This document shows, piece by piece, positions 16,862-30,500 of a stretch of DNA of 64,000 bases. The position numbers and the translations under genes are program-made. How positions within the stretch are numbered: the stretch's first letter is position 1; each line of letters begins with the position of its first letter. The notes beneath the pieces are model-generated. The model saw only the letters and a list, made by a program, of their open reading frames with translations, ran no database searches and had not been told where the DNA came from. The stretch is from Candidatus Gallimonas merdigallinarum (GTDB taxonomy: Bacteria > Bacillota > Clostridia > Christensenellales > Borkfalkiaceae), in contig CAJFFP010000002.1 in assembly GCA_904373325.1 (NCBI GenBank), forward strand, positions 83,840 through 147,839, read 5' to 3'.

Positions 16862-16906
16862 GCGTGAAAAATTCAGAATCTTTTCAGAATTGCGCCCCGC
16901 CGCCGC

Positions 16907-16935
16907 TTGCTTTTTCCGATGAGCAGTACTATACT
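16907..16935 (+). promoter_or_regulatory. Hybrid promoter: -35 in flank, -10 in the mobile element
   Basis: TTGCTT (16907-16912), 17-bp spacer, TATACT (16930-16935). The -10 is the terminal sequence of the palindromic element at 16930-17212. It would transcribe through the element into the permease gene. Confidence 0.62.
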
Positions 16936-17212
16936 GTAAGGGAAAAATACGAACCACGCCTTTGGCGGAATCTTTTCGGCATCTTTTTGCTCATCTTCCT
17001 TGCAATACGCTTGTATAACTTCGTCATCTTCACAAAAATCTGACGCGAAAATCTTCACGCCAAAGGTGCAAAGCAATCAAAAGCGGCAAGATGGGCGGGC
17101 AGACAAGGCGAAGCCCGCAGCGCGTGCCGTGCGGCACGGGCAAGGGCTTCAACAATGTATGAGCGCACAGTTTCCGCTTTTGATCGGGTTCGTATTACTC
17201 CCTTACAGTATA
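16930..17212 (+). mobile_element. Palindromic leader element, copy 1 (283 bp, MITE-like)
   Basis: Ends are inverted repeats: the first 27 bases and the reverse complement of the last 27 agree at 25 positions, beginning TATACTGTAAGGGA and including AATACGAACC. Inside are an 11-bp inverted pair ATCAAAAGCGG / CCGCTTTTGAT, a 9-bp pair CCTTTGGCG / CGCCAAAGG and a hairpin CGTGCC-GTGC-GGCACG (17123-17138). No transposase frame. A same-length copy lies at 29378-29660 and a shortened one at 30259-30399. The whole element sits between the -10 box and the ribosome site of the permease gene. Confidence 0.85.
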
Positions 17213-17242
17213 CTCTCCGTTGTCATTTGAGAGGAAGATATT

Positions 17243-18391
17243 ATGGAAGGCACGAAACTGCGCGGAAGGCGCATATTACATACGGCGGAGCAATTCGCCA
17301 AAAGCAACGTCGTACTCCTCGTGGCGATCGCCGCCGCGGCGGCGACCTGCATCTTCGTCCCGTTCGACAGGGAGTATGCGGGCTATTTCGATTGGAGCAC
17401 CCTTGCCTGCTTGTTCTGTACGATGGCGGTCGTCGCCGCATTCAAAAACATCCGTTTTTTCATATGGCTCGCGGACGTCATCGTGCGCCGCTTCAAAAAT
17501 ATGCGCAACATCGCGCTTGCGCTCGTGTTCGTCACCTTCTTCGGGTCGATGGTCATGGCGAACGATATGGCGCTCGTCACCTTCCTCCCGCTGGGATATT
17601 TCGTCCTTGAATCGTGCGGGAATAAAAAACAGACCGCCTTTATCTTCATCATGCAGAACATCGCCGCAAACCTCGGCGGAATGCTCACGCCGTTCGGGAA
17701 TCCGCAGAACCTCTACCTCTATTCCTATTACGCAATTCCGACGGGAGAATTCTTTGCCATTATGGCGCTCCCGTTCGCCGCGGCGTTTCTGATGATCCTC
17801 GGCGTATGCCTGTTCGTGAAACCCGAACCCGCGGTTTTGCAGGGCGTTCCCAAAAAGACGCCGTGCGTATGGCGGTCCGTCGTGTATGCGCTGCTGTTCG
17901 CGCTCTCCCTGCTCATTGTGTTCCGCGTGTTCCCCTACTATTGGGGACTTCTGGCAGTCGTCGTCGCCCTGCTCGCGCTCGACTTCCGCGCGCTCCTGCA
18001 CGTCGACTATTCCCTGCTCCTCACCTTCTGCGCCTTCTTCATTTTCTCCGGAAACCTTGCGCGCATACCCGCCGTGGCGGAGACGCTCAGCGCGTTCGTT
18101 GCGTTCGATCCGCTCGCCGTCGGCGTACTCTCCTGTCAGGTCATCTCCAACGTGCCGACGTCCGTTCTCCTTTCCAAATTTACCGAAAACTATCCCGCGC
18201 TGCTCATTGCCGTCAACGCGGGCGGGCTGGGAACGCCCATCGCCTCGCTGGCAAGCCTGATCACGCTGAACACCTTCCGCCGTATGTGCCCCGGCGAAAC
18301 GGGACGCTATCTGATCAGATTTCTGCTGTACAATTTTTCATTCCTCGCCGTTCTCATCGGCACAGGCTACCTGACCCTGCTGTTTTTCTGA
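17243..18391 (+). CDS. SLC13/ArsB-type anion permease
   Basis: 382 residues with about ten transmembrane segments. The family hallmark is the two-fold pseudo-repeat with NMRNIALAL and the motif GGMLTPFGNPQNLYLYSY in the first half, and GTPIASLASLITLN in the second. These line the substrate site in sodium-coupled dicarboxylate/anion carriers. The exact ion or acid is not evident. Start ATG 17243 with GAGAGGAAG before it. Its 5' leader is the palindromic element. The 3' end overlaps the convergent DUF1667 gene by 54 bp. Confidence 0.83.
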   Translation: MEGTKLRGRRILHTAEQFAKSNVVLLVAIAAAAATCIFVPFDREYAGYFDWSTLACLFCTMAVVAAFKNIRFFIWLADVIVRRFKNMRNIALALVFVTFFGSMVMANDMALVTFLPLGYFVLESCGNKKQTAFIFIMQNIAANLGGMLTPFGNPQNLYLYSYYAIPTGEFFAIMALPFAAAFLMILGVCLFVKPEPAVLQGVPKKTPCVWRSVVYALLFALSLLIVFRVFPYYWGLLAVVVALLALDFRALLHVDYSLLLTFCAFFIFSGNLARIPAVAETLSAFVAFDPLAVGVLSCQVISNVPTSVLLSKFTENYPALLIAVNAGGLGTPIASLASLITLNTFRRMCPGETGRYLIRFLLYNFSFLAVLIGTGYLTLLFF

Positions 18392-18742
18392 ATCCTCGTT
18401 CCGATACGCCGCCGCGGCGATGAGAGGCGTTCCCTCGCCGTCGATATCGGCGATAAGCGTCTCGCCCTGCTTTACGTCGCGGTCGATCCGCAGCGCGCGG
18501 ACACGCGCCATCACGCCGAAGATCTTCTCCTTCTTCACCTCTCCGTCCGTCTTGACGGGGATCATGCCGTGCGCGGCGCGCACGGTGCTCGTGACGATGC
18601 GCCGCGGGCAGGTCAGCTCCGCCTCGGCATACTTCTTCCCGCGCGGACAGAAATTCCCCGTGACAAAAACACCCTTTTCCGTTGTCTCCGCCGTCAGTTC
18701 GCAGCCGCGCGGACATTCGATACACACAAAATTTTGTTTCAT
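18338..18742 (-). CDS. DUF1667 protein of the glycerol-3-phosphate dehydrogenase cluster
   Basis: 134 residues from ATG 18742 (GGGAGG upstream). Cys residues lie in CIECPRGCEL, NFCPRGKKY and LTCPRR, giving a likely metal or Fe-S site. DUF1667 proteins follow GlpA-like and FAD/NAD oxidoreductase genes in many anaerobes, and probably pass electrons from glycerol-3-phosphate oxidation (family context, not proven). The start is adjacent to the stop of the preceding gene. The last 54 bp overlap the end of the opposing permease gene. Confidence 0.85.
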   Translation of the reverse strand: MKQNFVCIECPRGCELTAETTEKGVFVTGNFCPRGKKYAEAELTCPRRIVTSTVRAAHGMIPVKTDGEVKKEKIFGVMARVRALRIDRDVKQGETLIADIDGEGTPLIAAAAYRNEDSEKQQGQVACADENGEE

Positions 18743-18743
18743 G

Positions 18744-19979
18744 TTATGCCTCCCGCACGACGCTGATTTTAATATCGTGCGCATCCGCAAGATCGGCGGC
18801 TTTTACGGTGACGTTCTCCATTTCGCCCGGGGCGACCGCAATGCGCTTGTACGTTTTCACCGCGCTGCCCGTCTCCACGCGGACAACTGCGCCGCGGAAT
18901 GCGCTCCGCACGCGGAAGTACAGCTTGACGTCCTTCCCCTGTTCCGCGCGCTGCGGCAGAACGTACGTCACGTTCTCGCCCGACACGGTCGGGAGATACG
19001 CACGCTCTCCTTCGCCGCGAATAAGATACTCCGCCGCAGCCCTGCCCGCGACTTCCGCCTCTTCCGAGACAAAGTCCACGAGATCGTGCACGTGCAGCAC
19101 GTTTCCGCAGGCGAAAATGCCCGAAATATCCGTCTCCCTGTTCCCGTCTACAACGCAGCCCTTCGTGCGCGGATCGAGCGAAAGCCCCGCGCGCTTGGTA
19201 AGTTCGTTCTCGGGGATCAGCCCCACCGAGAAGAGCACCGTGTCGCAGGCGATCTCGCGCTCCGTTCCCGCAACGGGCTTCTTTGCCTTATCCACCTGCG
19301 CGATGACAACGCTCTCCACGCGCTCTTTGCCCCTGATCTCCACGATCGTATGTTCCAAGTAGAGCGGAATGCCGAAGTCGTCGAGGCACTGCGCAATGTT
19401 GCGCCTCAGTCCGCTCGAATGCTCCATGATCTCGCACACGCATTCCACCTTCGCGCCCTCCAACGTCATGCGGCGCGCCATGATCAGACCGATGTCGCCC
19501 GAACCGAGAATGACCACCCGCTTCCCGGGCAGATGCCCGTAAATGTTCACGTATTTCTGCGCTGTACCCGCGGAGTACAGTCCCGCGGGGCGGGTCCCCG
19601 CAATGTTCAGCGCGCCCTTGCTGCGTTCGCGGCAGCCCATGGCGAGGATGACCGCCTGCGCCTTTATCGTGAACACGCCGCTCTCGTTCATGCAGGTGAC
19701 CTGTTTGTCCCCCGTAAGATCTGTGACGAACGTGTTCGTCATGATCTCAATGCCGCGCGCGTTCGCTTCATTCAAAAACCGCTGTGCGTATTCAGGGCCC
19801 GTCATGCTCTCGTGAAAGCGCGTCAGCCCGAACCCGTTGTGGATACACTGTTTCAGGATGCCGCCCGCACGCTCCTCGCGTTCGACGACGACCATATCCC
19901 GCACGCCCGCATCGTAGGCGGCGACTGCGGCGGCTAGCCCCGCGGGACCGCCCCCGATGATGACAAGTTGTTTTTTCAT
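18744..19979 (-). CDS. FAD/NAD(P)-binding oxidoreductase (GlpB-like partner)
   Basis: 411 residues from ATG 19979, which shares one base with the stop of the gene before. The FAD site is IIGGGPAGLAAAV at residues 6-18, and a second Rossmann motif VVILGSGDIGLIMARR lies near 165. ATG or GDG-type motif IFACGNVL is near 290. It is a pyridine nucleotide-disulphide-type reductase without the redox Cys pair. With its neighbours it should link glycerol-3-phosphate oxidation to a pyridine nucleotide or Fe-S carrier. Confidence 0.86.
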   Translation of the reverse strand: MKKQLVIIGGGPAGLAAAVAAYDAGVRDMVVVEREERAGGILKQCIHNGFGLTRFHESMTGPEYAQRFLNEANARGIEIMTNTFVTDLTGDKQVTCMNESGVFTIKAQAVILAMGCRERSKGALNIAGTRPAGLYSAGTAQKYVNIYGHLPGKRVVILGSGDIGLIMARRMTLEGAKVECVCEIMEHSSGLRRNIAQCLDDFGIPLYLEHTIVEIRGKERVESVVIAQVDKAKKPVAGTEREIACDTVLFSVGLIPENELTKRAGLSLDPRTKGCVVDGNRETDISGIFACGNVLHVHDLVDFVSEEAEVAGRAAAEYLIRGEGERAYLPTVSGENVTYVLPQRAEQGKDVKLYFRVRSAFRGAVVRVETGSAVKTYKRIAVAPGEMENVTVKAADLADAHDIKISVVREA

Positions 19980-21409
19980 CACAATTCGCCTCCCATGATG
20001 AGATAGGATTTTCCGCCGTTTTTCGTGACCTCTTCCGCCTTCATGCCGAACTCCTTCATGAGTTCGTTGAATACGCTCGGCTGACAGAACCCGCTTTGAC
20101 ACCTGCCCATGCCCGCGCGCGTGCGAAGTTTCACCCCGTCCAGCGTCCTTGCGGGCGGATTGCTGCGCGTGGCCTCGAGAATTTCGCCCAGCGTCACCTC
20201 CTCGCAGCGGCACACGATCCTGCCGTATGCGGGATCGCGGGCGATGACCGCGTTCTTTTCCTCAGGCGGAAGCTCTCTGAACCAATGCGCACTGCGGCGG
20301 ACGGGATCGAACTTTTCGTTCTTCTTCGCCCCGAGCGCGTCCGAGACCTCTTTCGCGATTTCCGCGGCGATGGCGGGCGAGGACGTAAGTCCCGGCGATT
20401 CGATGCCCGCCGCGTGATATACGCCCTCCGCACCCCATTCGAGAATAAAGTCGTGGCGATCGCTGTAAGCGCGTTCGCCCGCAAAGGACGTGATGACCTG
20501 CCCGAAGGGAATATCCGCGATCATGGAGAGCGCCTTCCCCCTGATCTCGTCGTATGCGGGACGGCGGACGGCGGTGGAGTACATTTCGTCCTCCACGGAA
20601 GTCGGTCCCACAAGCAGATTTCCGTCTGCCGTGGGTGTGACGAGCACGCCCTTGCCCGCCTTTGTCGGAACGGTGAACACCGTGTGCGAAACGTGTCCGC
20701 CCGCAGTCTTATCCAGCAGCATATATTCGCCGCGCCGCAGTCCGATACGGAAGGACGCGCCTCCAAGGAGGTCGGCGACGTATTCCGCCCCCGCGCCCGC
20801 GCAGTTGACGACGACGCGCGCCGTCACCTGCCTGCCGTCCGAGGAGAAAAGCGTCCAGCCCGCCTCCTCCTTTTGCGCGCCGCACACTTCAAACCCGCAG
20901 AGAAGCTCCGCGCCGTTGTCCATGGCGTTGCCCATGGCGGCGATCGTCAGTCCGTACGGGCAGACGATTCCGCCCGTCGGCGCATACAGCGCAGCCGTTA
21001 CGTCGCCCGCCGAGTGCGGTTCTTTCTCCAAGACCTGTTCCCGCGTGAGAAGTTCCAGCCCGTCCACGCCGTTTTCGCGCCCGCGCGCAAGAAGCGTTTG
21101 AAGCTGCGCCTCTTCCTCCGCGCCATGCGCGACGACCAGCGAGCCGTTGCGCCTGAACGTCACACCAAGCTCGCGGCAGACGGTCTCCATCATGGCGTTC
21201 CCCAAAACATTGTACTTCGCTTTCAGCGTTCCCGAAACGGCGTCAAAGCCCGCGTGTACAATGCCGCTGTTCGCCTTGGACGCCCCCGCAGCAACGTCGT
21301 CCGCAGCTTCCAGAACGACCGCGGACAATTCATACTTTTTCAGTTCGCGCGCCGCAAGCGCGCCGATCACCCCGCCGCCGATAACGGCGACGTCATATTT
21401 TGCTCTCAT
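19979..21409 (-). CDS. FAD-dependent glycerol-3-phosphate dehydrogenase-like protein with BFD domain
   Basis: 476 residues. The N-terminal DAO fold has the FAD motif VAVIGGGVIGALAAREL (residues 7-23). The C-terminal bacterioferritin-associated-ferredoxin-like domain carries IVCRCEEVT and GMGRCQSGFC, four Cys for a 2Fe-2S cluster. This is the GlpA layout of anaerobes: oxidation of glycerol-3-phosphate to dihydroxyacetone phosphate. First gene of a three-gene operon with a promoter at 21468-21496. Other substrates such as 2-hydroxyglutarate are possible in this family. Confidence 0.88.
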   Translation of the reverse strand: MRAKYDVAVIGGGVIGALAARELKKYELSAVVLEAADDVAAGASKANSGIVHAGFDAVSGTLKAKYNVLGNAMMETVCRELGVTFRRNGSLVVAHGAEEEAQLQTLLARGRENGVDGLELLTREQVLEKEPHSAGDVTAALYAPTGGIVCPYGLTIAAMGNAMDNGAELLCGFEVCGAQKEEAGWTLFSSDGRQVTARVVVNCAGAGAEYVADLLGGASFRIGLRRGEYMLLDKTAGGHVSHTVFTVPTKAGKGVLVTPTADGNLLVGPTSVEDEMYSTAVRRPAYDEIRGKALSMIADIPFGQVITSFAGERAYSDRHDFILEWGAEGVYHAAGIESPGLTSSPAIAAEIAKEVSDALGAKKNEKFDPVRRSAHWFRELPPEEKNAVIARDPAYGRIVCRCEEVTLGEILEATRSNPPARTLDGVKLRTRAGMGRCQSGFCQPSVFNELMKEFGMKAEEVTKNGGKSYLIMGGEL

Positions 21410-21467
21410 TTGTTCCCCTTCCCGATCATATCTTTCAAAAAACCCTTTTGAATTTGAGACCGATAAT

Positions 21468-21496
21468 ATTATAGCATATCTTCACGGAAAAGGCAA
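21468..21496 (-). promoter_or_regulatory. Sigma-A promoter of the glycerol-3-phosphate operon
   Basis: TTGCCT (21491-21496), 17-bp spacer, TATAAT (21468-21473) on the minus strand. Confidence 0.72.
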
Positions 21497-21599
21497 GGAT
21501 GACCGGAATCGCGGCAGAATCCGAATGACTTCCGTCCGATATTTTCCGCGTTCGCAACGGCTGCCGCGCCGCACGAGCCTCCCCGTCGCCGCACGACAG

Positions 21600-21653
21600 A
21601 AAAACACGGCAGGACAACAGTCCTGCCGTGTTTTTGGTGCACCGTAAGAGATT
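21600..21653. repeat. 54-bp direct repeat, copy A (terminator plus tRNA 3' tip)
   Basis: Identical to 21778-21831. It holds a terminator hairpin (ACACGGCAGGAC / GTCCTGCCGTGT, T-run on both sides) and then the last 18 bases of tRNA-Arg in reverse. After the shared 54 bp the copies diverge. The 124 bp between the copies contain no gene. Confidence 0.85.
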
Positions 21654-21777
21654 TTCTTCGGCGGCGCCTCGAAAGCTTCGTCGGCGGAAATGCCCCCAAC
21701 CCTCGCCTGCGCCGCGCTCCGCCGCCTCCTCGCGCGAACTCCTGTGAATGCAGGGGTTTGAACTGCTTACCGTACGC

Positions 21778-21831
21778 AAAAACACGGCAGGACAACAGTC
21801 CTGCCGTGTTTTTGGTGCACCGTAAGAGATT
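21778..21831. repeat. 54-bp direct repeat, copy B, overlapping the tRNA remnant
   Basis: Second copy of the repeat at 21600-21653, 178 bp away. Here the tRNA sequence continues to 21875. A tRNA 3' end duplicated with its terminator is what site-specific integration or slippage at a tRNA leaves behind. Confidence 0.85.
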
Positions 21832-21875
21832 CGAACTCCTGGCCTTCGGTTCCGTAGACCGACGCTATATCCAGC
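21813..21875 (-). pseudogene. Truncated tRNA-Arg(ACG), 5' end missing
   Basis: On the minus strand the D-loop side (GCTGGATATAGC), anticodon arm TCGGT-CTACGGA-ACCGA (anticodon ACG), T-arm AGGAG-TTCGAAT-CTCTT, acceptor 3' strand ACGGTGC and an encoded ACCA are all present. The 5' acceptor strand expected as GCACCGT and the first half of the D-stem are not found upstream. The molecule cannot form its acceptor stem, so it is probably not functional. It is followed by the terminator hairpin in the 54-bp repeat. Confidence 0.7.
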
Positions 21876-22124
21876 CATGATATTATACCTGTTCAAATGC
21901 CGTTTGTCAACGGATTTTAAGGGGAATTTTTCGTTTCCACAGAAAAAATCTCATTGTGGAAAAGTTGTATGGATTTACCCCCGTTTATGCGGGGTCAGGC
22001 GTGTCGAATTGTGGAAAAACAGGTCGAAACGGCAAAAAAATGTGGATAACTTTTTTCAAAACTTTCGTTCGGATTTGCAATTTTGTGTGGAAAACCGCCA
22101 AATGTGGACAATTTTACCCACATA
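21876..22124. other. Gene-free AT-rich stretch with a cluster of DnaA boxes
   Basis: TGTGGATAA at 22041-22049 is a perfect DnaA box (TTATCCACA reversed). One-mismatch boxes TGTGGAAAA lie at 21955-21963, 22010-22018 and 22086-22094, and TGTGGACAA at 22103-22111, all in one direction. TTACCCACA (22114-22122) and GTTTCCACA (21933-21941) point the other way. Seven boxes within 190 bp is far denser than chance. No dnaA or dnaN gene is near and gene strand does not flip here, so a full origin is unproven. Confidence 0.6.
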
Positions 22125-22592
22125 TCAACCGACGGACGGACGGGAAAAATCCTCCTCCGAAAGCGGCAGAATGCGCAGTCCGTGCGGAATACATACGATG
22201 ACGCCGCCGCCTTCGCCGACGGGCTGCATGGCGCAGCAATCCTTGCGGCGGCTGCAATTCGCGTCGCGCATGGAGGCGGATTTCGCACCGTCGTCTATGA
22301 CGATCTCGTTCCATTCCCCTTCCGAAACCTGAACGGTGACGAGGAGCAGCTCTTCCTCCTCGCGCTCGGTAACGCGCTCCGCCCATTCGGACGAAACTTC
22401 TCCGCCCGCGCCGAACCGATAGGTGTAGACGGTCTCTCCGTTCACCTCCACACGGAACCCCTCCGCCTGCCCGCCGCCGATGAGCGCGGCAGCCAGAAAG
22501 AGCGCGCCAATCAGCAGGACTGCCGCCCCGTAGACGAGCAGATCGGCAAGACGAAAGAACTTCCCTCCGCGCACCAGACGGGCGTATTTCAT
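22125..22592 (-). CDS. NusG domain II-containing membrane-anchored protein
   Basis: 155 residues: a basic N-terminus, one transmembrane helix (residues about 17-40), then an extracytoplasmic NusG domain-II fold. The family Cys/His pattern appears as NCSRRKDCCAMQPV and VCIPHGLRI. The partner function is unknown, but in Clostridia these genes are often next to ApbE flavinyl transferases and electron-transfer membrane proteins. Its ATG overlaps the apbE stop by 4 bp, so the two are translated together. Confidence 0.8.
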   Translation of the reverse strand: MKYARLVRGGKFFRLADLLVYGAAVLLIGALFLAAALIGGGQAEGFRVEVNGETVYTYRFGAGGEVSSEWAERVTEREEEELLLVTVQVSEGEWNEIVIDDGAKSASMRDANCSRRKDCCAMQPVGEGGGVIVCIPHGLRILPLSEEDFSRPSVG

Positions 22593-23749
22593 GCGAACGC
22601 CTCCACGCCGTCGAAAGACGCGGTGACGGTATACTGCGATTGGTCAAGGTTGGTATAGAGAACGTATTCGTCGGATTCCGCGTCGTACCAGACGAACATG
22701 ACGCGGAACGTATCGGAATGCGCCGAAGCGTATTCCTGCGCCTCCGCCGCGGACATGGTGACGAGCGCGGTCGCGCGGGCGTCCCCTTCCGCCGCCGATC
22801 CGCCCACGACGGTCGCGCACAGGATATGGCTTCCCGCGCCGACGGGCTGACCGTTCCTGCCGATAATGTGGCTGTAACGCGTTCCGCCGATCTCGTAATA
22901 CTGCTCGTAGTCGCCGCTCGTGGAGACCGTCGTATTTTTGACGGAGAGCGTTGCATACGACGTGCCGAGTTCCTCGCGCGGGGAATTGACGGTGATCTCC
23001 CAGATCCCGTCCTGCCGCGAGGGATTTTCCAGAACGCACAGACTGCTCCCGCCCGCGTTATAGTAGCCGTATTTCACGCCCGCCGTGCGGAGAATTTCCG
23101 CCGCAGCGTCCACGCTTGCGCCCTTGCCGATGCCGTCAAGGCTGATCCGCATGGAATAATCCGTTCCGTCCACGGAAGCGACTGCGGCGGGTTTTGCAAT
23201 CGAATAGCCGCCGTCCGTCTCCGACAAAATCACCGAGGAGAAGTCCGCCATTGCGGGAGCGGAAAACGCGTCGATAAACTTCTGCTCGGGGAGCGTTTCC
23301 TCGAAATTCTGTCTGTCGTATGGAAGCGAGGGCTGATAGTCGACGACGCGGTGACGGGGAGAAAAGCCCCAGAGATCGACAAGAAGCCCCGTGGCGGGAT
23401 TGTACGCGCCGCCCGTCTCCGCATACATTGCCGCCGCCGTCTGCAAGATGCCGTACGCCGTTTCATCGACCGCGATCTCCGTTCCTGCCGCCGCCTCGCT
23501 GAACCGCGCCGCCGCGCTGCCCGAAACGGATACGGAAATGCCCGATTCGATTTCCGCCGTGCGGGCGGTCATCTGCACCCAGAGCGCGTCCGCGTCAAGC
23601 TCCTCCGCCGTAGAATACACCCAGCGGATCTGCGAACCGAAGCGATTGTATTCGTCTTTGGCGCGAAGCGTTTCCCCTCCCGTACAGGCGGAAAGCGCAA
23701 AAACGCCCGTCAGGAGCACTGCCGCGGCGATACAGGCAAGTTTTTTCAT
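22589..23749 (-). CDS. apbE: ApbE-family FAD:protein FMN transferase, lipoprotein
   Basis: 386 residues with a lipoprotein signal (lipobox LSAC, Cys 21), so it is anchored outside the membrane. The flavin-binding signature ISLDGIGKGASVD, the SSLCVL strand and the metal-site DARATAL are present. It should attach FMN to Thr or Ser of an extracytoplasmic partner. The usual H-I-x-D-P-x-T-G loop reads SHIIGRNGQPVG, without the Asp-Pro and Thr. ATG 23749; promoter 23825-23853. First of two genes with the NusG-II protein. Confidence 0.86.
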   Translation of the reverse strand: MKKLACIAAAVLLTGVFALSACTGGETLRAKDEYNRFGSQIRWVYSTAEELDADALWVQMTARTAEIESGISVSVSGSAAARFSEAAAGTEIAVDETAYGILQTAAAMYAETGGAYNPATGLLVDLWGFSPRHRVVDYQPSLPYDRQNFEETLPEQKFIDAFSAPAMADFSSVILSETDGGYSIAKPAAVASVDGTDYSMRISLDGIGKGASVDAAAEILRTAGVKYGYYNAGGSSLCVLENPSRQDGIWEITVNSPREELGTSYATLSVKNTTVSTSGDYEQYYEIGGTRYSHIIGRNGQPVGAGSHILCATVVGGSAAEGDARATALVTMSAAEAQEYASAHSDTFRVMFVWYDAESDEYVLYTNLDQSQYTVTASFDGVEAFA

Positions 23750-23824
23750 GAACGCTTCCTCCCCGTTCCGCAGGCGGACGCGCAGAGATTTGCAACCCCG
23801 TTCCGATGCGGAAGAATATGTTCA

Positions 23825-23853
23825 AGTATAGCGCATTTCACGCAAAAAGGCAA
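23825..23853 (-). promoter_or_regulatory. Sigma-A promoter of apbE
   Basis: TTGCCT (23848-23853), 17-bp spacer, TATACT (23825-23830) on the minus strand. Confidence 0.68.
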
Positions 23854-23881
23854 GAAAAAGCGGCGCACGCGCGCCGCAATC

Positions 23882-24259
23882 TCAGTTATGTTTGGTATGC
23901 GATTTAAATACGAGCGAGGCGAGGAAGGAAAAGACGACCGCCGCGCTCACGCCCGCGCTTGCCGCCGCGAGCGCGCCCGTGAGCGCCTCGAACAGTCCCT
24001 CCTGCGCGCCCTTCATCGCGCCGTTCGCGAGCAGATAGCCGAACCCCGAAATAGGTACTGTCGCACCCGCGCCCGCCCACTCGACGAGGGGCTGATAGAT
24101 CCCGAGCGCCGTGAGCGCGATGCCCGCGAGCATGAAGATGACGAGAATTTTTCCCGCCGTGAGATCGGTAAAATTGATGACGAGCTGCGCGATCGCGCAG
24201 ATCAGTCCGCCGACCGCGAACGCCTTTAAAAACGCAAGAAATATTTCCAATGCTTCCAT
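23882..24259 (-). CDS. spoVAE: Stage V sporulation protein AE (SpoVAE)
   Basis: 125 residues from ATG 24259 (AAGGAG upstream). Four hydrophobic segments, with family motifs FAVGGLICAIAQ near residue 14 and GAGATVPISGFG near 62. SpoVAE is an inner-membrane part of the spore channel that moves calcium-dipicolinate into and out of the core. It normally follows spoVAD directly. Here 442 bp of tandem repeat lie between them, and spoVAC is not in the window. Confidence 0.92.
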   Translation of the reverse strand: MEALEIFLAFLKAFAVGGLICAIAQLVINFTDLTAGKILVIFMLAGIALTALGIYQPLVEWAGAGATVPISGFGYLLANGAMKGAQEGLFEALTGALAAASAGVSAAVVFSFLASLVFKSHTKHN

Positions 24260-24309
24260 ATTCAGTCTCCTTAGATGCATTATGACAACAGAAGATACAC
24301 TCCGACAAC

Positions 24310-24691
24310 GGATCGCGCAGAAGATCAGCCCATTTTTTGGCAGAAGATTCAAGCCAGCCGAGGAGCGCGAGGAAAAGCCGAGGGAGCTTACTAAAACGTA
24401 AGTGACCGAGGCTTGCCGCAGCGCGACAAAGGATCGCGCAGAAGAGCCATTCCACTTTTTGGCAGAAGCTTCAAGCCAGCCGAGGAGCGCGAGGAAAAGC
24501 CGAGGGAGCTTACTAAACGGTAAGTGACCGAGGCTTGCCGCAGCGCGACAAAGGATCGCGCAGAAGATCAGTCCCCTTTTTTGGCAGAAGATTCAAGCCA
24601 GCCGAGGAGCGCGAGGAAAAGCCGAGGGAGCTTACGAAATGGTAAGTGACCGAGGCTTGCCGCAGCGCGACAAAGGATTGCGCAGAAGATC
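24310..24691. repeat. 122-bp tandem repeat, three copies plus a tail
   Basis: The phrase GGATCGCGCAGAAG starts at 24310, 24431 and 24553, and its variant at 24675, a period of 121-122 bp. Each unit contains an imperfect hairpin with a fixed apical stem CTTAC / GTAAG and changing loops (TAAAAC, TAAACG, GAAATG), and a second hairpin GCGCGA / TCGCGC around CAAAGGA. It fills the gap between spoVAD and spoVAE. No gene is seen in it; open frames there are the repeat read through. Confidence 0.9.
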
Positions 24692-24701
24692 CTGCCAAAA
24701 A

Positions 24702-25694
24702 CTACCGTTCCAGCGTGACCGCGTGGGCTATACACGGAATGCTTTCGCCCTGCCCCGAGGATACGGTGGATAACAGCGCGCCCGTCGCAACGAAGAGAAT
24801 GCGCCTGAGCGCGCCCGCCGTCATCTTGTTATACAGATAGGAATTGAGCACAACCGCCGAACAGCCTGCGCCGCTCCCGCCCTGAAACTCGTCCTCGATC
24901 ACGTTATAGATGATCTCTCCGCAGTCGACGTGGTTTTCGGCGATGTCCAGCCCCTTTTCCCAAGTGAGATCTTTGAGAATGCGGCTGCCCAGCGCGCCGA
25001 GATCGCCCGTGACGATGAGGTCGTAGGCGTCAGGCTCTTCGCCCGTCGTACGGAAGTGCGTCAGAATGGTATCCGCCGCCGCAGGCGCCATTGCCGCGCC
25101 CATGTTGTTCACGTCCGTCACGCCGAAATCCACCACCTTCCCAAGCGTTGCCGAGGTGATGCGGATCCCCTCGCCCTCCGCCGCGACGAGCGACGCGCCC
25201 GCGCCCGTGACCGTCCACTGCGACTGCGGCGGGCGGGTCGTGCCGAGTTCGAGCGGATAGCGGTACTGCCGTTCGGCGGAAGCGAAGTGGCTTCCCGTCG
25301 CCGCGACGACGTTGCGGCAATACCCCGCGTTGACGAACGCCGCCGCCACCGCAAGACTCTCCGCCATCGTCGAACAGGCGCCGTACACGCCGAGGAAGGG
25401 CACGGAGAAGTCGCGCGCGGCAAAGCTCGCGGAAATGATCTGGTTGAGAAGATCGCCCGAGACGATCATATCCACCTGATCGCGTCTGAGTTTTGCGTTC
25501 GCGATCGCGCCGTCGATGGCGCGCGAAAGCATTTTGCACTCCGCCTTTTCGTACGTGCTTTCGCCGAACATATCGTCCGAAAGCGGCGTCTCCACATATC
25601 TGCCGACGATGCCCTCGCATTCCTTCGACCCCGCCACCGTGCTTGCGGCGATGATGCGCGGCTGACGTTCAAAAATTATTCTCTGCCCGTTCAT
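24702..25694 (-). CDS. spoVAD: Stage V sporulation protein AD (SpoVAD)
   Basis: 330 residues with a thiolase-like fold. Conserved stretches are RIIFERQPRIIAAST, YGACSTMAESLAVAA (the family Cys position) and EFQGGSGAGCSAVVL. SpoVAD binds dipicolinic acid and works with the membrane SpoVA proteins when the spore core is loaded. No clear Shine-Dalgarno precedes ATG 25694, though the N-terminus aligns with the family. The preceding gene is a methyltransferase, not spoVAC. I could not find a clear sigma-G promoter. Confidence 0.93.
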   Translation of the reverse strand: MNGQRIIFERQPRIIAASTVAGSKECEGIVGRYVETPLSDDMFGESTYEKAECKMLSRAIDGAIANAKLRRDQVDMIVSGDLLNQIISASFAARDFSVPFLGVYGACSTMAESLAVAAAFVNAGYCRNVVAATGSHFASAERQYRYPLELGTTRPPQSQWTVTGAGASLVAAEGEGIRITSATLGKVVDFGVTDVNNMGAAMAPAAADTILTHFRTTGEEPDAYDLIVTGDLGALGSRILKDLTWEKGLDIAENHVDCGEIIYNVIEDEFQGGSGAGCSAVVLNSYLYNKMTAGALRRILFVATGALLSTVSSGQGESIPCIAHAVTLER

Positions 25695-25730
25695 CGCTTG
25701 CAGTTTGCGTAACTTTCCGCGGGATATGCA

Positions 25731-25760
25731 GCGCCGCCGCTCCGAACGGAGCGGCGGCGC
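25731..25760 (-). terminator. Strong hairpin between methyltransferase and spoVAD
   Basis: A 13-bp GC-rich stem at 25731-25743 / 25748-25760 with a four-base loop. There is no T-run on the minus strand, so termination is uncertain; it may protect the 3' end of the methyltransferase mRNA. Confidence 0.4.
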
Positions 25761-25786
25761 ACAGGAGAATCATGAATGAGAGCCGT

Positions 25787-26791
25787 TTAGTCCCGATAGT
25801 ACTCTTTGGCGCCGTGGAAGAACGCGTCAATGTTCTTCCACGGCGTGCGGGGCGGAATATCGCACCCCGAGGAAAGCACGAAGTTGTGGTACTTTCCGCA
25901 GTCGCGCAGCAGCGCGGAAGTGACGTCGTACACCGACTGCTCGGTGCCGTTCAAAAACTCGCCCGCGGGATCGACGTTGCCCATGGCGATGCAGTCCGAC
26001 GGCATATGCGGCATTAGATCGCGCATATCGATGGCGTTGCCGAAGTGGTACGCCTTGCAGCCCGTGCCGACGATGCCGTCCAGCATACGAATCGTGCCGT
26101 TGCCGCAGTTGTGATAGACGATGATGAAGTTCTCGTCCTGACAGGCGTCGACGATGCGTTTGACGTACGGGTGCGAGAACTCCGCCGCAAGATCGGGCGA
26201 GAGCATGCCCGCGAGCGGCTCGGCGATGACGACGCCGTCCGCGCCAACTTCCTTGTACTTTTTGATATAATCGACAAGGAACTGCGTGCATTTTTCCAGC
26301 ACCGTTCTGAGCATATCGGGGTCTTCAAAGCACAGGATCATCGCCTCGGTCACGTCGACGAGCCGCCCCGCAAGGGAGAACGGTCCGATGACGCCCGCAA
26401 ACACGGGGCGGTCGGTGATGAGCTTTTTCGCCTCGGCGATCGCGTCGAGGTAGATCCCCGTGCGCCCGCTCCCGACGGCGGGAACTTGAAGCGCCTCCGC
26501 CTCTTCGGGCGTCGTGACGATCGCGCCAACGACGGTGGGAACTTCGTCCTCCGTCATTCTGACCTGCGAACCGAAGCACTCCGCCTCGACGGAAAGATCC
26601 ATCAGACTGACCGAAGCGAGCGCGTCCGTGCGGTCCGCGACGAGTTTCATGCCGCGCGCCTGCGCCTCCGCCGAGAAGCTCAGCTCCCTGACGTTGACGC
26701 CCGTCATCTGAATGGCGGGATAGGAAAGCACGGGCATGGGCTTCTTTTTGGGATTGTTTCTGACTGCTTCCAGCCATTTGTACATATTCAC
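25787..26791 (-). CDS. Uroporphyrinogen decarboxylase-family methyltransferase (MtaA/CmuA-like)
   Basis: 334 residues from GTG 26791, placed by AGGAGG eight bases upstream. The UroD-type TIM barrel shows the zinc ligand motif YHNCGNG (near 230) and the C-terminal SSGCDIPPRTPW. These His/Cys positions are those of corrinoid-dependent methyltransferases, not of heme synthesis enzymes. It should move a methyl group to or from the corrinoid protein three genes upstream. The methyl donor is not evident. It starts 3 bp after the GH13 stop. Confidence 0.84.
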   Translation of the reverse strand: MNMYKWLEAVRNNPKKKPMPVLSYPAIQMTGVNVRELSFSAEAQARGMKLVADRTDALASVSLMDLSVEAECFGSQVRMTEDEVPTVVGAIVTTPEEAEALQVPAVGSGRTGIYLDAIAEAKKLITDRPVFAGVIGPFSLAGRLVDVTEAMILCFEDPDMLRTVLEKCTQFLVDYIKKYKEVGADGVVIAEPLAGMLSPDLAAEFSHPYVKRIVDACQDENFIIVYHNCGNGTIRMLDGIVGTGCKAYHFGNAIDMRDLMPHMPSDCIAMGNVDPAGEFLNGTEQSVYDVTSALLRDCGKYHNFVLSSGCDIPPRTPWKNIDAFFHGAKEYYRD

Positions 26792-26794
26792 GAT

Positions 26795-28360
26795 TTATAC
26801 CTCCTCGAATACGGCGAGCGAAAGCCCGTCCATCGTCAGTTCTCCGTTCTCTAAATGCGCCGTGCCGACGCTCTCGCGGAGACGATAGTTCCCCTTCGCG
26901 GCGATCTGCGCGGACGCGCCTTCCGAGCGGGGATTGACGGCGATCAGGAACTTGCCGCGGCGGAACACGAAGGGATATTCCCCCTCTTCCGCATACACGA
27001 GATCGAGATTGTCCACCGCCTGCAACTCCTCTTCCGCGGCGCGCAGGTGCGCAAATTTTCTGACGGTGTTCAGCAGGGAATTTGCGTCCGCCTGCCGGCT
27101 CTCCACGTCGGGAGACTTCGGCGAAGGATCGACGGGCAGGTAGAGCGCGCCGTTCGCCTGCGAGAAGCCTCTGTTCTTTCCGCCGTTCCACTGCATGGGC
27201 GTGCGCGAGCCGGTACGGAAGAATCCGCCCTCTTTGGAGGTCAGCCCCTCCATGTAGGGAAGCCCGATCTCGTCGCCGTAATACACGAAGGGAATGGAGG
27301 GCATGAGCATGATAAACGCCGATGCGACCTTCATCTCCTCCTGCGTGCGGCGGTGGGAATAGCGGATCATATCGTGATTACCCGTCGGCATACACATATG
27401 CCCGCGCCCCGAGATGTAGGCGAGATTTTCCATAAATTCGTCGGTAAAGGCGCGGATATTGCCGCCGCCCTCGCGGTTGAAGAAGCACTTCACCTCTTCC
27501 CCGCGGTCGACGTAATCGTAACTGTCCGTCTGGAAGAGCGCGTTATAGCCCTTGGAACGGAAATGAATGTAGAAGTCGAGGTGGAAGCCCGCGTCGATCG
27601 CGTCCTTCGCGTACGACCACTCGGAGAGGATCGCCGCGTCGGGATACTCTTTATCGAGCATGGCGCGCACGTTCTGCCACAGACGCTTGATGCCCGTGCG
27701 GTTATCGTCGTTCTTGACGAGGGAGTACGCCATATCCACGCGGAAGCCGTCGCAGCCCATATCCAGCCAGAAACGCATCACGCTCTTCATCTCTTCGAGC
27801 GTCGCGACGCAGGCGGGATGATCGGGCGGGAGCTGCCAAGGGTAATCCTGACGCTCGAACCCGTAGTTGAGCGCGGGCTGCGAGCTGAAAAAGTTGACGA
27901 CGTAGTTTCCGTTGCGGTCGGAAAGTCCGCTTTGCAGGCGGAAGCCTTCGGGGTAGTCGAACACGTCGTTCGTCCAGATATAGCGGTCGGAATATTTGTT
28001 GCGGTCGGGTCTGCGCGACGCGCGGAACCACTTGTGCTTATCCGACGTGTGCCCGGGAACGAGATCGAGCAGGACGCGGATCCCGCGCTTGTGCGCCTCT
28101 TCAAAGAGCACGCGCGCGTCGTCGTTCGTCCCGTAGCGGGGCGCGATCTTGTAGTAATCTTTTACGTCGTACCCCGCGTCCATGAACGGGGAATCGAAAC
28201 AGGGATTGATCCAGAGCGCGTTGAAGCCGAGATCTTTGATATAGTCGAGCTTTTCCACGATGCCGGGCAGATCGCCGATGCCGTCGCCGTTGGAATCGTA
28301 AAAGCTCTGCGGATAGATCTCGTAAAAGATCGCCTCTTTCAGCCATGCAGGCATATTCAT
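26795..28360 (-). CDS. GH13 alpha-glucosidase (oligo-1,6-glucosidase/trehalose-6-P hydrolase type)
   Basis: 521 residues, near the family length. Catalytic motifs are GFRVDMAYSL (nucleophile Asp), ILSEWSYAKDA (acid/base Glu) and PTGNHDMIRYS. The N-terminus (FYEIYPQSFYDSNGDGIGDL) is diagnostic of the subfamily. Cytoplasmic. It is oddly placed between a ferredoxin and a methyltransferase, with 18- and 3-bp spacers, so one transcript carries both carbohydrate and one-carbon functions. Release of a methylated or glycosylated substrate is one speculative link. Confidence 0.9.
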   Translation of the reverse strand: MNMPAWLKEAIFYEIYPQSFYDSNGDGIGDLPGIVEKLDYIKDLGFNALWINPCFDSPFMDAGYDVKDYYKIAPRYGTNDDARVLFEEAHKRGIRVLLDLVPGHTSDKHKWFRASRRPDRNKYSDRYIWTNDVFDYPEGFRLQSGLSDRNGNYVVNFFSSQPALNYGFERQDYPWQLPPDHPACVATLEEMKSVMRFWLDMGCDGFRVDMAYSLVKNDDNRTGIKRLWQNVRAMLDKEYPDAAILSEWSYAKDAIDAGFHLDFYIHFRSKGYNALFQTDSYDYVDRGEEVKCFFNREGGGNIRAFTDEFMENLAYISGRGHMCMPTGNHDMIRYSHRRTQEEMKVASAFIMLMPSIPFVYYGDEIGLPYMEGLTSKEGGFFRTGSRTPMQWNGGKNRGFSQANGALYLPVDPSPKSPDVESRQADANSLLNTVRKFAHLRAAEEELQAVDNLDLVYAEEGEYPFVFRRGKFLIAVNPRSEGASAQIAAKGNYRLRESVGTAHLENGELTMDGLSLAVFEEV

Positions 28361-28378
28361 ATTCTTTCTCCTTTCCGC

Positions 28379-28702
28379 TTAATTTGCGCCTTCCTCTTTG
28401 AGCGCGTCCGCCACTGCCAGAAGGTTTTCGGGCGGCGTGTCGCGCGGGACTTCGCACCCTGCCGACGAGATATAGTTGGTCGGAACGGCGGCGCGGCAGG
28501 CAAGCACTAATCCGCCCTCATCGGGCTGCGCGCCCGAAACGCGCCCCTCCAAAAGCTTCACCTTGCACTTTCCGCAGGTGCCGTTTCCGCCGCAACGCAT
28601 GGGGATATGGATTCCGTGCATGGAAAAGAGGCGTCCCAGACTCTTCCCCCGTTCCGCCTCGAACACAACCGTCCTTTCACCCGTCAGAACCGTGAGTTTC
28701 AT
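28379..28702 (-). CDS. 2Fe-2S ferredoxin resembling the N-terminal domain of corrinoid activation proteins
   Basis: 107 residues. The plant-type 2Fe-2S pattern is CGGNGTCGKCKV (residues 37-48) plus a later Cys in LACRAAV. Corrinoid-activating proteins (RACo/RamA-like) begin with this domain, followed by a large ATPase part; here only the ferredoxin exists. It may supply electrons to reduce the inactive Co(II) corrinoid, with the ATPase coded elsewhere. It lies 25 bp after the corrinoid protein gene. Confidence 0.83.
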   Translation of the reverse strand: MKLTVLTGERTVVFEAERGKSLGRLFSMHGIHIPMRCGGNGTCGKCKVKLLEGRVSGAQPDEGGLVLACRAAVPTNYISSAGCEVPRDTPPENLLAVADALKEEGAN

Positions 28703-28727
28703 CTATACGCCTCTCTCTTGATTATTT

Positions 28728-29360
28728 TCAGTTGAAGTACGATCTCGCGACCTCCGCCGCCGTCGCCGCGTCGGGCGTGTAAGCGTCCGCGCCGATTTCG
28801 TCGGCAAACGCCTGCGTCACGGGCGCGCCGCCGACCATGACTTTGACCTGATCGCGCAGCCCCGCTTCTTTGAGCGCGTCGATCGTCGCCTTCTGGTTGA
28901 CCATCGTCGTCGTGAGGAGCGCGGAAAGGCAGACGATGTCGGGCTTATACTCCTTCACCGCCTCCACAACGCGCTCGGGCGGGCAGTCGATGCCGAGATC
29001 GATCACGCTGATGCCCGTGCCTTCAATCATCATTTTTACGAGGTTTTTGCCGATGTCGTGCAGATCGCCCTTCACCGTGCAGATGACCGCCTTCCCGATC
29101 GACTCCACGCCCGCCTGCGCGAGCACGGGTTTGAGGATATTCAGCGCGGCGTTCATGGCGCGCGCTGTGATCAGCACTTCCGAAACGAAGATCTCGTTCT
29201 TTTTAAAACGTTCGCCGACGGCGCTCATGCCCGGGATCAACGCCTTCGTGAGAATGTCGTTCGCGGCGGTACCGTCTGCAAGCTCTTCCTGAACAAGCGC
29301 GGAAAGCTCGCGCGGTCTCCCCTTTTGCAACAATGCGGAAATTTCATCAAAACGATTCAT
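28728..29360 (-). CDS. Corrinoid-binding methyl carrier protein (MttC/MtbC-like)
   Basis: 210 residues from ATG 29360 with GGAGG before it. An N-terminal four-helix cap (residues 1-90) is followed by a B12-binding Rossmann domain with the cobalamin motif GDLHDIGKNLV, whose His binds cobalt, and the later SALLTTTMVNQ and VMVGGAPV stretches. It carries methyl groups between methyltransferases in the cytoplasm. First gene of a four-gene operon with the ferredoxin, GH13 and UroD-type methyltransferase. The element at 29378-29660 forms its leader. Confidence 0.92.
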   Translation of the reverse strand: MNRFDEISALLQKGRPRELSALVQEELADGTAANDILTKALIPGMSAVGERFKKNEIFVSEVLITARAMNAALNILKPVLAQAGVESIGKAVICTVKGDLHDIGKNLVKMMIEGTGISVIDLGIDCPPERVVEAVKEYKPDIVCLSALLTTTMVNQKATIDALKEAGLRDQVKVMVGGAPVTQAFADEIGADAYTPDAATAAEVARSYFN

Positions 29361-29377
29361 GGAATTCCTCCTTCTGT

Positions 29378-29660
29378 TATACTGTAAGGGAGTAATACGA
29401 ACCCGATCAAAAGCGGAAACTGTGCGCTCATACTTTGTTGAAGCCCTTGCCCGTGCCACACGGCACGCGCGGCGTCCTTCGCCTCGCCTGAGACGCTCAT
29501 CTTGCCGCTTTTGATTGCTTCGCACCTTTGGCGTGAAGATTTTCGCGTCAGATTTTTGGGAAGATGACGCCGCTATACAAGCGTATTGCAAGGAAGATGA
29601 GCAAAAAGATGCCGAAAAGATTCCGCCAAAGGCGTGCTTCGTATTGTTCCCTTACAGTAT
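29378..29660 (-). mobile_element. Palindromic leader element, copy 2 (283 bp)
   Basis: Same length and order of internal motifs as the 16930-17212 copy, read on the minus strand, i.e. in the direction of the corrinoid operon. Terminal repeats, the hairpin CGTGCC-GTGT-GGCACG (stem kept, loop changed) and the ATCAAAAGCGG / CCGCTTTTGAT pair are present. A -10-like TATAAT (29665-29670) abuts its 5' end, and the ribosome site of the corrinoid gene starts just past its 3' end. Confidence 0.85.
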
Positions 29661-29664
29661 CCCT

Positions 29665-29670
29665 ATTATA
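29665..29670 (-). promoter_or_regulatory. -10 box at the edge of leader element copy 2
   Basis: TATAAT on the minus strand, predicting +1 at about 29658 inside the element end. The -35 at 17-bp spacing (TTTCCC, 29688-29693) is poor, so activator help may be needed. Confidence 0.45.
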
Positions 29671-29782
29671 CATGACGCGCAAGGTTCGGGAAAGCCACCG
29701 CATTGCCAACTTATAGCACGATTTTGCCATGCAAAAGAGTGCAAAACCGCCCCCGCAGGGGAAATTTTGCGCTCTTTTCGGC

Positions 29783-30226
29783 TTATTCCGTCTGTTCAGG
29801 CGCGTCGTTCAGCTCCGCCTGCGCGCCGCCCTCTTCCGCGGACGCGCCGCCCGCCGTCTTTTCCGTCGGGAGAGTCTTCTCCGAACGCTTTTCGGCTTTG
29901 GATTCGTCCTTGCCCTCGAAGAAGGAAAGAATGGCGAAGCAGGCGAACACGACGATCTTGCCGATCACCACAATCAGGTGATACACGCTGAGGAAACCGC
30001 TCATGCCGCCGCCCACAGAATTTATCGCGGAAAACAGCAGCGAGATCGCTTCCAGCGCCGTGAAAATGAGAACGACGATAAACGCGCGCTTGGAAGTTTC
30101 CTTCAATTCGCGGTCGTCGCACTTGACGATGGTATAGCCGCCGACGATCGCATACGCGACGATGCTCAGATACCCGCATACCCAGATCAGCAGTTTTTTC
30201 CATCTCTTGGACCAGAGTTCTTTCAT
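29783..30226 (-). CDS. Membrane protein of unknown function with acidic tail
   Basis: 147 residues from ATG 30226 (AAGGAGG upstream). Three hydrophobic segments are clear (residues about 12-32, 45-66 and 73-95). The last 45 residues are hydrophilic and rich in Glu, Lys and Ala. No family recognised. Its promoter and leader come from the third palindromic element (30259-30399). A short hairpin near 29745 may end the transcript. Confidence 0.7.
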   Translation of the reverse strand: MKELWSKRWKKLLIWVCGYLSIVAYAIVGGYTIVKCDDRELKETSKRAFIVVLIFTALEAISLLFSAINSVGGGMSGFLSVYHLIVVIGKIVVFACFAILSFFEGKDESKAEKRSEKTLPTEKTAGGASAEEGGAQAELNDAPEQTE

Positions 30227-30258
30227 ATGATGACCTCCTTTTATCATACGCCTTACAT

Positions 30259-30399
30259 TATACTGTAAGGGAGTAATACGAACCCGATCAAAAGCGGAAA
30301 CTGTGCGTTCATACTTTGTTGAACCCCTTGCCCGTGCCACACGGCACGCGCTGAAAGATTCCGCCAAAGGCGTGGTTCGTATTTTTCCCTTACAGTATA
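30259..30399 (-). mobile_element. Palindromic leader element, copy 3 (141 bp, internally deleted)
   Basis: Both terminal repeats and the central hairpin (CGTGCC-GTGT-GGCACG) match the 283-bp copies, but 142 internal bases are missing between GGAATCTTT and AGCGCGTGCCG. The deletion removes one arm of each long inner helix. Orientation to the downstream gene is the same as in the other copies. Confidence 0.83.
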
Positions 30400-30422
30400 T
30401 GAAATCAACGGCGCGCCGTCAA
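30394..30422 (-). promoter_or_regulatory. Hybrid promoter at leader element copy 3
   Basis: TTGACG (30417-30422) in the flank, 17-bp spacer, TATACT (30394-30399) from the element end, on the minus strand. Same design as at 16907-16935. Confidence 0.62.
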
Positions 30423-30464: not shown

Positions 30465-30500
30465 AAAAAAATCCGCTGCAAACGCAGCGGATCTTTTTTT
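30465..30500 (-). terminator. Terminator of the giant repeat protein gene
   Basis: Stem ATCCGCTGC / GCAGCGGAT (30471-30492) with an AAAC loop, runs of A and T on both sides. Confidence 0.82.

Follow-up and report, generated by a model that had tools for sequence, protein, structure and literature searches.

How can a mobile element settle in the promoters of its host, and does it carry a regulatory leader with it? This question is raised by three copies of a palindromic element in a 64,000-nucleotide stretch of Candidatus Gallimonas merdigallinarum DNA (contig CAJFFP010000002.1, positions 83,840 to 147,839 of the forward strand; hereafter the window). An initial annotation, made from the sequence of the window, had described them as mobile, portable structured leaders that always precede a gene in the same orientation. 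All three copies were confirmed at 16930-17212, 29378-29660 and 30259-30399, each with the same orientation relative to the next gene and each with a CGTGCC/GGCACG hairpin. The element is a new family and a new variant; the family is non-autonomous, resembles miniature inverted-repeat transposable elements (MITEs), and has a standard form of about 283 bp. Probably, it inserts at TATA sequences, in this genome mostly those of host -10 boxes, its end restores the -10 box, and its fold is kept as DNA or by correction between its arms.

The element family and its insertion sites

The source genome of the window (G000; 38 contigs totalling 1.56 Mb) was searched with copy 1 as query, and full, shortened and lengthened copies were obtained. 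We tabulated 27 copies and fragments, one of which is a 24-bp remnant and several of which end at contig ends. The elements have the ends CTGTAAGGG...CCCTTACAG, with TATA at both outer sides. A longer end motif gave 45 matches in G000 at up to three mismatches, and its reversed control gave none. In the window, TACTGTAAGGGA was matched seven times at up to two mismatches (six element ends and one other site; 1.44 expected), a number reached by none of 100 shuffles. The two-ended copies of G000 were mostly 282-289 bp long, and the rest measured 141, 228, 233, 351, 377 and 494 bp. As in MITEs, the copies were numerous, short (141-494 bp for the paired copies of G000), bounded by terminal inverted repeats and devoid of a transposase. 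The two ends of most copies in G000 differ at positions 13-14 counted from TACTGT, with AA or AC on the left and GT or GC on the right, and are otherwise an inverted repeat; the exceptions are C4b, C8 and C36.

The sequence in front of the elements was then compared between the two ends, excluding from the -35 counts any end with a flank shorter than 40-45 bases. Of the 22 left ends counted in G000, 14 had TTG 16-18 bp before the terminal TATACT, and of the 22 right ends one did (Fisher p = 6e-5); TG occupied the extended -10 position at 13 of these left ends and at one of the right ends. For comparison, 158 noncoding TATA sites were taken from the window and 22 other stretches of G000 with simple codon-based gene calls, and 42 of them had TTG at -35 spacing on either strand.

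Element-free versions of the sites were also investigated. Sixteen sites were aligned to 40 stretches from seven same-genus genomes (eight searched), and together with the site in front of the permease gene behind copy 1 this gave 17 sites. The end motif (up to two mismatches) was missing from 39 of the 40 aligned stretches, with one occurrence in L401, and the element-free sites show insertion, which bears out the claim of a mobile element. At 10 of the 17 sites (C1, C2a, C2c, C5, C7b, C8, C19, C22, C36 and C37a), the element-free relatives carried a -10 box at the insertion point; C19 is the less sure of these because its alignment has a gap, and at C7b one of four relatives (L404) has an unrelated upstream region. 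At the permease site, at least 8 of 18 relatives' loci (L200-L203, L205-L208) have TTGCnT, 17 bp and a -10 hexamer, where G000 has TTGCTT, 17 bp and the element. The hexamers found at this site in element-free relatives were TATAGT, TATACT, TATATT, TATGCT or TATCCT. Judged from these sequences, the elements of G000 favour the TATA within host -10 boxes, which often have an extended TGn.

At C34, C36, C7b, C5, C8 and C25, a single TATA was found when the site was element-free and a TATA on both sides when it was filled. The filled site C34, for example, reads CGCCG-TATA-AAAA, and the element-free relative L366 reads CGCCGTATAAAAATGC. Because TATA is its own complement, a duplication of 4 bp, of 2 bp or none at all (with longer ends) fits alike. 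Element ends standing back to back were seen at L129 5572-5615 and also in L174, L182 and L190; they look as if one copy had entered the outer TATA of another.

Because each end begins TATACTGT (outer TA included), entry of an element into a -10 TATA sets a new -10 hexamer, TATACT, just as far from the host -35 as the old one had been. The promoter would therefore survive. Transcription would start about 7 nt after TATACT, around AAGGG, to judge from spacing only; the element would become the 5' leader of the gene, its stem would begin almost at the first nucleotide, and the native ribosome site downstream would stay untouched. With damage to the promoter avoided in this way, the element could live in promoters. 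Its nested arms would be paired as DNA, whether as a folded single strand, as a cruciform or through arm-to-arm correction, perhaps for mobility, and would not serve as a regulatory RNA.

The three copies of the window differ in how they relate to their promoters. They had been placed between the -10 box and the ribosome site of a gene, and this is correct for copy 2, but copies 1 and 3 have their own first six bases at the -10 position. The inverted ends are real, although they are 23-26 nt rather than 27 bp long (26 nt and 92% complementary in copies 1 and 3; 23 nt and 91% in copy 2). Copy 1 (283 bp, 16930-17212, plus strand) precedes a CitMHS-type permease gene (PF03600 CitMHS; 17243-18391, plus strand), with its terminal inverted repeats at 16930-16955 (left, plus strand) and 17187-17212 (right, minus strand); its left-end TATACT occupies the -10 position, 17 bp behind the native -35 TTGCTT of the interrupted promoter (16907-16912, plus strand). 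Copy 2 (C2b; 283 bp, 29378-29660, minus strand) forms the putative leader of a B12-binding protein gene (PF02310, PF02607; 28728-29360, minus strand). A native TATAAT (-10) lies just upstream of it (29665-29670, minus strand) and is also present in L402, where the site is element-free; no -35 there was strong enough to register in the consensus promoter scan. Copy 3 (141 bp, 30259-30399, minus strand) is an internal-deletion form with inverted ends at 30259-30284 and 30374-30399. Its left end (30394-30399) is at the -10 position, with the native -35 TTGACG (30417-30422, minus strand) 17 bp before its TATACT, and the element-free L403 has TTGACA, 17 bp and TATAAT at this site. The gene behind copy 3 (29783-30226, minus strand) encodes a small predicted protein with no Pfam match.

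Two further observations were made in the window. A single open frame of 5,221 codons runs from 30499 to 46164 on the minus strand; PF09479 (Listeria-Bacteroides repeat) matched 17 stretches of its C-terminal half and one of its N-terminal half, and it probably encodes a giant surface-type repeat protein. At 21824-21877 (minus strand), Rfam gave a weak tRNA match (31.3 bits, E 0.014), for which ARAGORN makes no call.

Orientation and spread in relatives

One genome each of 84,980 species was scanned for the exact element end, which was found in 86 stretches; among the 80 loci listed of these 86, the titles were uncultured Clostridia, Candidatus Coproplasma or Candidatus Gallimonas. In a sample of the family, copy 1 was matched by 35 of 301 genomes, its own included. 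A 52-bp minimal form, consisting of the ends and one short hairpin, was seen at L115 4796-4847 in a Candidatus Coproplasma stercoravium record.

Orientation was counted genome by genome in G000 and in two relatives, G180 and G309; the full copies in these two share 88-96% identity with copy 1. In G000, the neighbouring gene read away from the element at 20 of 22 right ends, in comparison with 11 of 22 left ends. Leader placement in one orientation therefore holds for G000, but not for G180 and G309, where genes read away from 6 and 8 right ends and into 3 and 8, respectively. TTG at the -35 position was found at 2 of 12 left ends and 4 of 10 right ends in G180, and at 2 of 13 left ends and 3 of 16 right ends in G309. 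The ratio of TTG-bearing left to right ends was 14:1 in G000 versus 4:7 in G180 and G309 together (Fisher p = 0.003). C16 is a reverse case within G000, with TTG 17 bp from its right end and the same insertion in G180. In the 80 listed loci, which include records of G180 and G309, 6 of 33 left-type ends had TTG, as did 12 of 53 right-type ends and 8 of 35 ends that were unclassified. Five of 123 ends in relatives, and four ends in G180 and G309, were inside predicted genes. The initial annotation had named random orientation and copies inside genes, with no conserved RNA fold, as grounds for giving up the leader idea; the relatives show both orientations and some ends within genes, which agrees with part of these grounds, and the fold is conserved.

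The link to -10 boxes and the prevailing orientation might both have arisen by later selection, with insertion at TATA being random and only promoter-sparing copies being kept. We regard this as a serious but tentative explanation, somewhat short of an even chance. Either end can supply a -10 box, in keeping with the TTG counts of the relatives, and copies 1 and 2 each have a terminator-like hairpin on their antisense strand. However, noncoding TATA sites with TTG on neither strand are plentiful (116 of 158), and many of them should be neutral, yet the copies still prefer -10 boxes. The terminator-like hairpin was also not above chance (one found, 0.7 expected), and the same stretch is present in copies of G180 and G309 (L213), genomes without orientation bias; an antisense terminator was accordingly rejected as the cause of the orientation. 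That the mobilising machinery itself reads -10 boxes directionally, for example as the single-stranded -10 region of an RNA polymerase open complex, and inserts a folded single strand one way, we consider unlikely; the element would then be a transposon that seeks out promoters and mends the damage it does.

Candidates for the mobilising enzyme were sought as well. Seven pairs of ends 0.7-4 kb apart were considered as an autonomous partner and were judged to be chance ends or neighbouring copies. A Y1 transposase about 1 kb from C21 was set aside as a candidate mobiliser, as it is part of a distinct IS200-like element next to a tRNA repeat and lies outside any copy. Y1 matches were found in 25 of 103 genomes of the genus, G000 among them, and in neither G180 nor G309, both rich in copies. 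At L073 2280-2565, a partial tRNA-Arg-like repeat lies upstream of a fuller one and adjoins the IS200-like element with the Y1 transposase. Copy 1 had no match in plasmid or phage collections, and viral contigs contained no exact element end.

Several results weigh against insertion into host -10 boxes by an element that restores them. No transposase with these ends was found in the fetched loci, either between paired ends 0.7-4 kb apart or in stretches with isolated ends. Seven of the 17 compared sites are not at a -10 TATA. Three of these, C2b (copy 2 of the window), C11 and C25, sit a few bases downstream of a native -10 box; C3, C34 and C12 were by inspection outside any promoter in that direction, C3 and C34 lying between genes that run the opposite way and C12 directly after a stop codon, with a terminator-like hairpin preceding the next gene; and C21 is truncated on the left. 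The flanks of C3 (AATA and TATC) do not fit a strict 4-bp duplication. In G180 and G309, TTG was found at just 11 of 51 left- and right-type ends. A consensus scan of 16880-17250 found no promoter, so that of copy 1 does not register, and the case for promoters here is built on position and on the relatives and not on consensus strength. The scan did find the promoter of copy 3 (10 of 12 positions), but 1.1 such sites are expected there by chance. Finally, the activity of TATACT and the start point are inferred from sequence.

Fold and covariation

The fold was analyzed in 33 aligned copies with mutual identities below about 95.5%, picked from 46 copies of 260-290 nt; 68 distinct paired elements were available overall. 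The consensus fold has a single terminal stem and two long arms, each tipped with hairpins, and comprises 11 helices. Paired cells made up 94.6% of 3049, a percentage that is not independent by itself because the structure was derived from the same sequences. Covariation was strong, with 226 cells changed on both sides; shuffles gave 67 such cells and slid controls 10-56. Further pair types stood out less in number (79 versus 74; reached by 23 of 500 shuffles).

Such covariation across 11 helices would suit selection on the RNA fold of a portable structured leader that acts like a riboswitch or stabilises the message. The single orientation before genes in G000 (20 of 22 right ends) and the predicted start, which would place a long stem at the 5' end, point the same way. 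The types of mismatch in the helices do not. In the 91 pairs that the sense and antisense folds share, 51 G-U and 70 A-C mismatches were counted; in the 93 pairs of the sense fold the numbers were 67 and 71, and in the 11 copies of G000 among the 46 they were 14 and 17. As a control, 16 distinct tRNAs were taken from the fetched loci, and the stems of 15 of them gave 22 G-U and 2 A-C. This control is small, the positions of its anticodon stems are approximate, and the sixteenth tRNA was lost to a filter in which G-U counts as a pair. In the relatives, a mixture of sense and antisense insertions could blur the comparison, and less so in the copies of G000. In addition, both orientations occur in relatives, no Rfam match was found on the copies of the window (gathering threshold, window only), and in G000 copy C36 lacks the CGTGCC hairpin and C2c the middle of the element.

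The neighbouring genes are unrelated, which also speaks against a regulatory leader. Twenty further neighbours were scanned, 18 reading away from a right end and two (at C3 and C34) running towards it. They included genes for SIR2, haemolysin-III-like, histidyl-tRNA-synthetase-like, DUF3737, M18 peptidase, adenine deaminase, nucleotidyltransferase, PemK-like, DnaB_2, fucose isomerase, abhydrolase, DeoR-type regulator, MscS, DegV, YicC, helix-turn-helix, DXP reductoisomerase and BacA proteins and two ABC transporters. Since this set is mixed and has no common function, nothing suggests a regulon. The portable RNA leader proposed in the initial annotation is not supported: the fold is conserved, but selection on a sense RNA was not seen, and we rate such a leader as very unlikely. 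Because G-U did not exceed A-C, the fold looks to be kept as DNA, or by correction between the arms, rather than as sense RNA. Palindromic elements derived from IS200/IS605 and repetitive extragenic palindromic (REP) elements likewise have folds conserved as DNA hairpins; they are not known to have long terminal inverted repeats.

The C16 insertion is shared by L070 4520-5013 (494 bp, G000) and L298 (C57 of G180, 283 bp). The two copies have identical private end variants and wholly different arm tips, so that arms change in place. Replacement of this kind would be expected if template switching between imperfect inverted repeats (quasipalindrome correction) had produced the covariation as a side effect and the fold had no function, an explanation that we find plausible, if a little less probable than its opposite, and that is compatible with the proposed effect on the promoter. 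Within the same rows, several adjacent pairs are altered jointly, for example from CCTTTGGCG to CCTTTAAATG together with the partner, and the missing G-U excess fits as well. Hairpins are reported to arise and be maintained through template switching (PMC8794818). Against a functionless fold, 46 of the 68 distinct paired elements keep a length of 267-285 nt, even where identity to copy 1 is as low as 68%; of the others, 10 fall below this range and 12 above it. The 2-nt mismatch between the ends also persists in most copies of G000, and free correction should erase such a mismatch.

Known systems and meaning

The closest precedent is given by the Correia repeat enclosed elements (CREE) of Neisseria with their Snyder promoters. 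According to PMC2649163, CREE are short, have inverted ends, often use TA as target and can be part of mRNA; in a Snyder promoter, the -35 is native and the -10 lies within the first six bases of the element. By position, the left ends described here would have the same device, with a native -35 and the -10 in their first six bases. Strain FA1090 has 15 potential Snyder promoters among 113 CREE according to that text, in comparison with TTG at the -35 position of 14 of 22 left ends here, counts for which the criteria differ. CREE are given there as 69-157 bp long, and the present elements are about 283 bp and multi-branched; the core ends, compared by description, differ as well. Here the element entered an existing -10 box, as most left ends of G000 did, one orientation prevails and the host is a relative of Clostridia, whereas CREE are found in Neisseria.

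MITEAba12, BrickBuilt, QMITE1 and SonMITE_1 are prokaryotic MITEs that carry sigma-70-like promoter sequences, as described in the review PMC10969869. Like the present family, such elements are non-autonomous and intergenic, with stem-loop transcripts and promoter effects on neighbouring genes (both predicted here). Unlike in those elements, it is the host's own promoter that would regain its -10 box here, and the scan of copy 1 showed no internal promoter-like site. The family has no known parent insertion sequence. Entry into an existing -10 box together with a prevailing orientation was reported neither in the literature searched nor in the accessible part of that review, and the same literature, from which most subscription papers fell outside the search, held no report of these elements or of a transposon aimed at -10 boxes.

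The family is best read as a selfish one that tolerates residence in promoters because it supplies the -10 box anew, its leader role being a consequence. It also provides a case in which strong base-pair covariation is no pointer to a functional RNA, a matter of importance for searches that identify structured RNAs by covariation only. If the one-way insertion were target choice, a transposition mechanism that reads promoters would be at work. The element is probably transcribed as the 5' leader of its genes, to judge from its position, and a leader of 140 to 490 nt would then have been added to unrelated genes. With a spare -10 box at each end, the family shows a way for a mobile element to inhabit bacterial promoters and leave them unsilenced.

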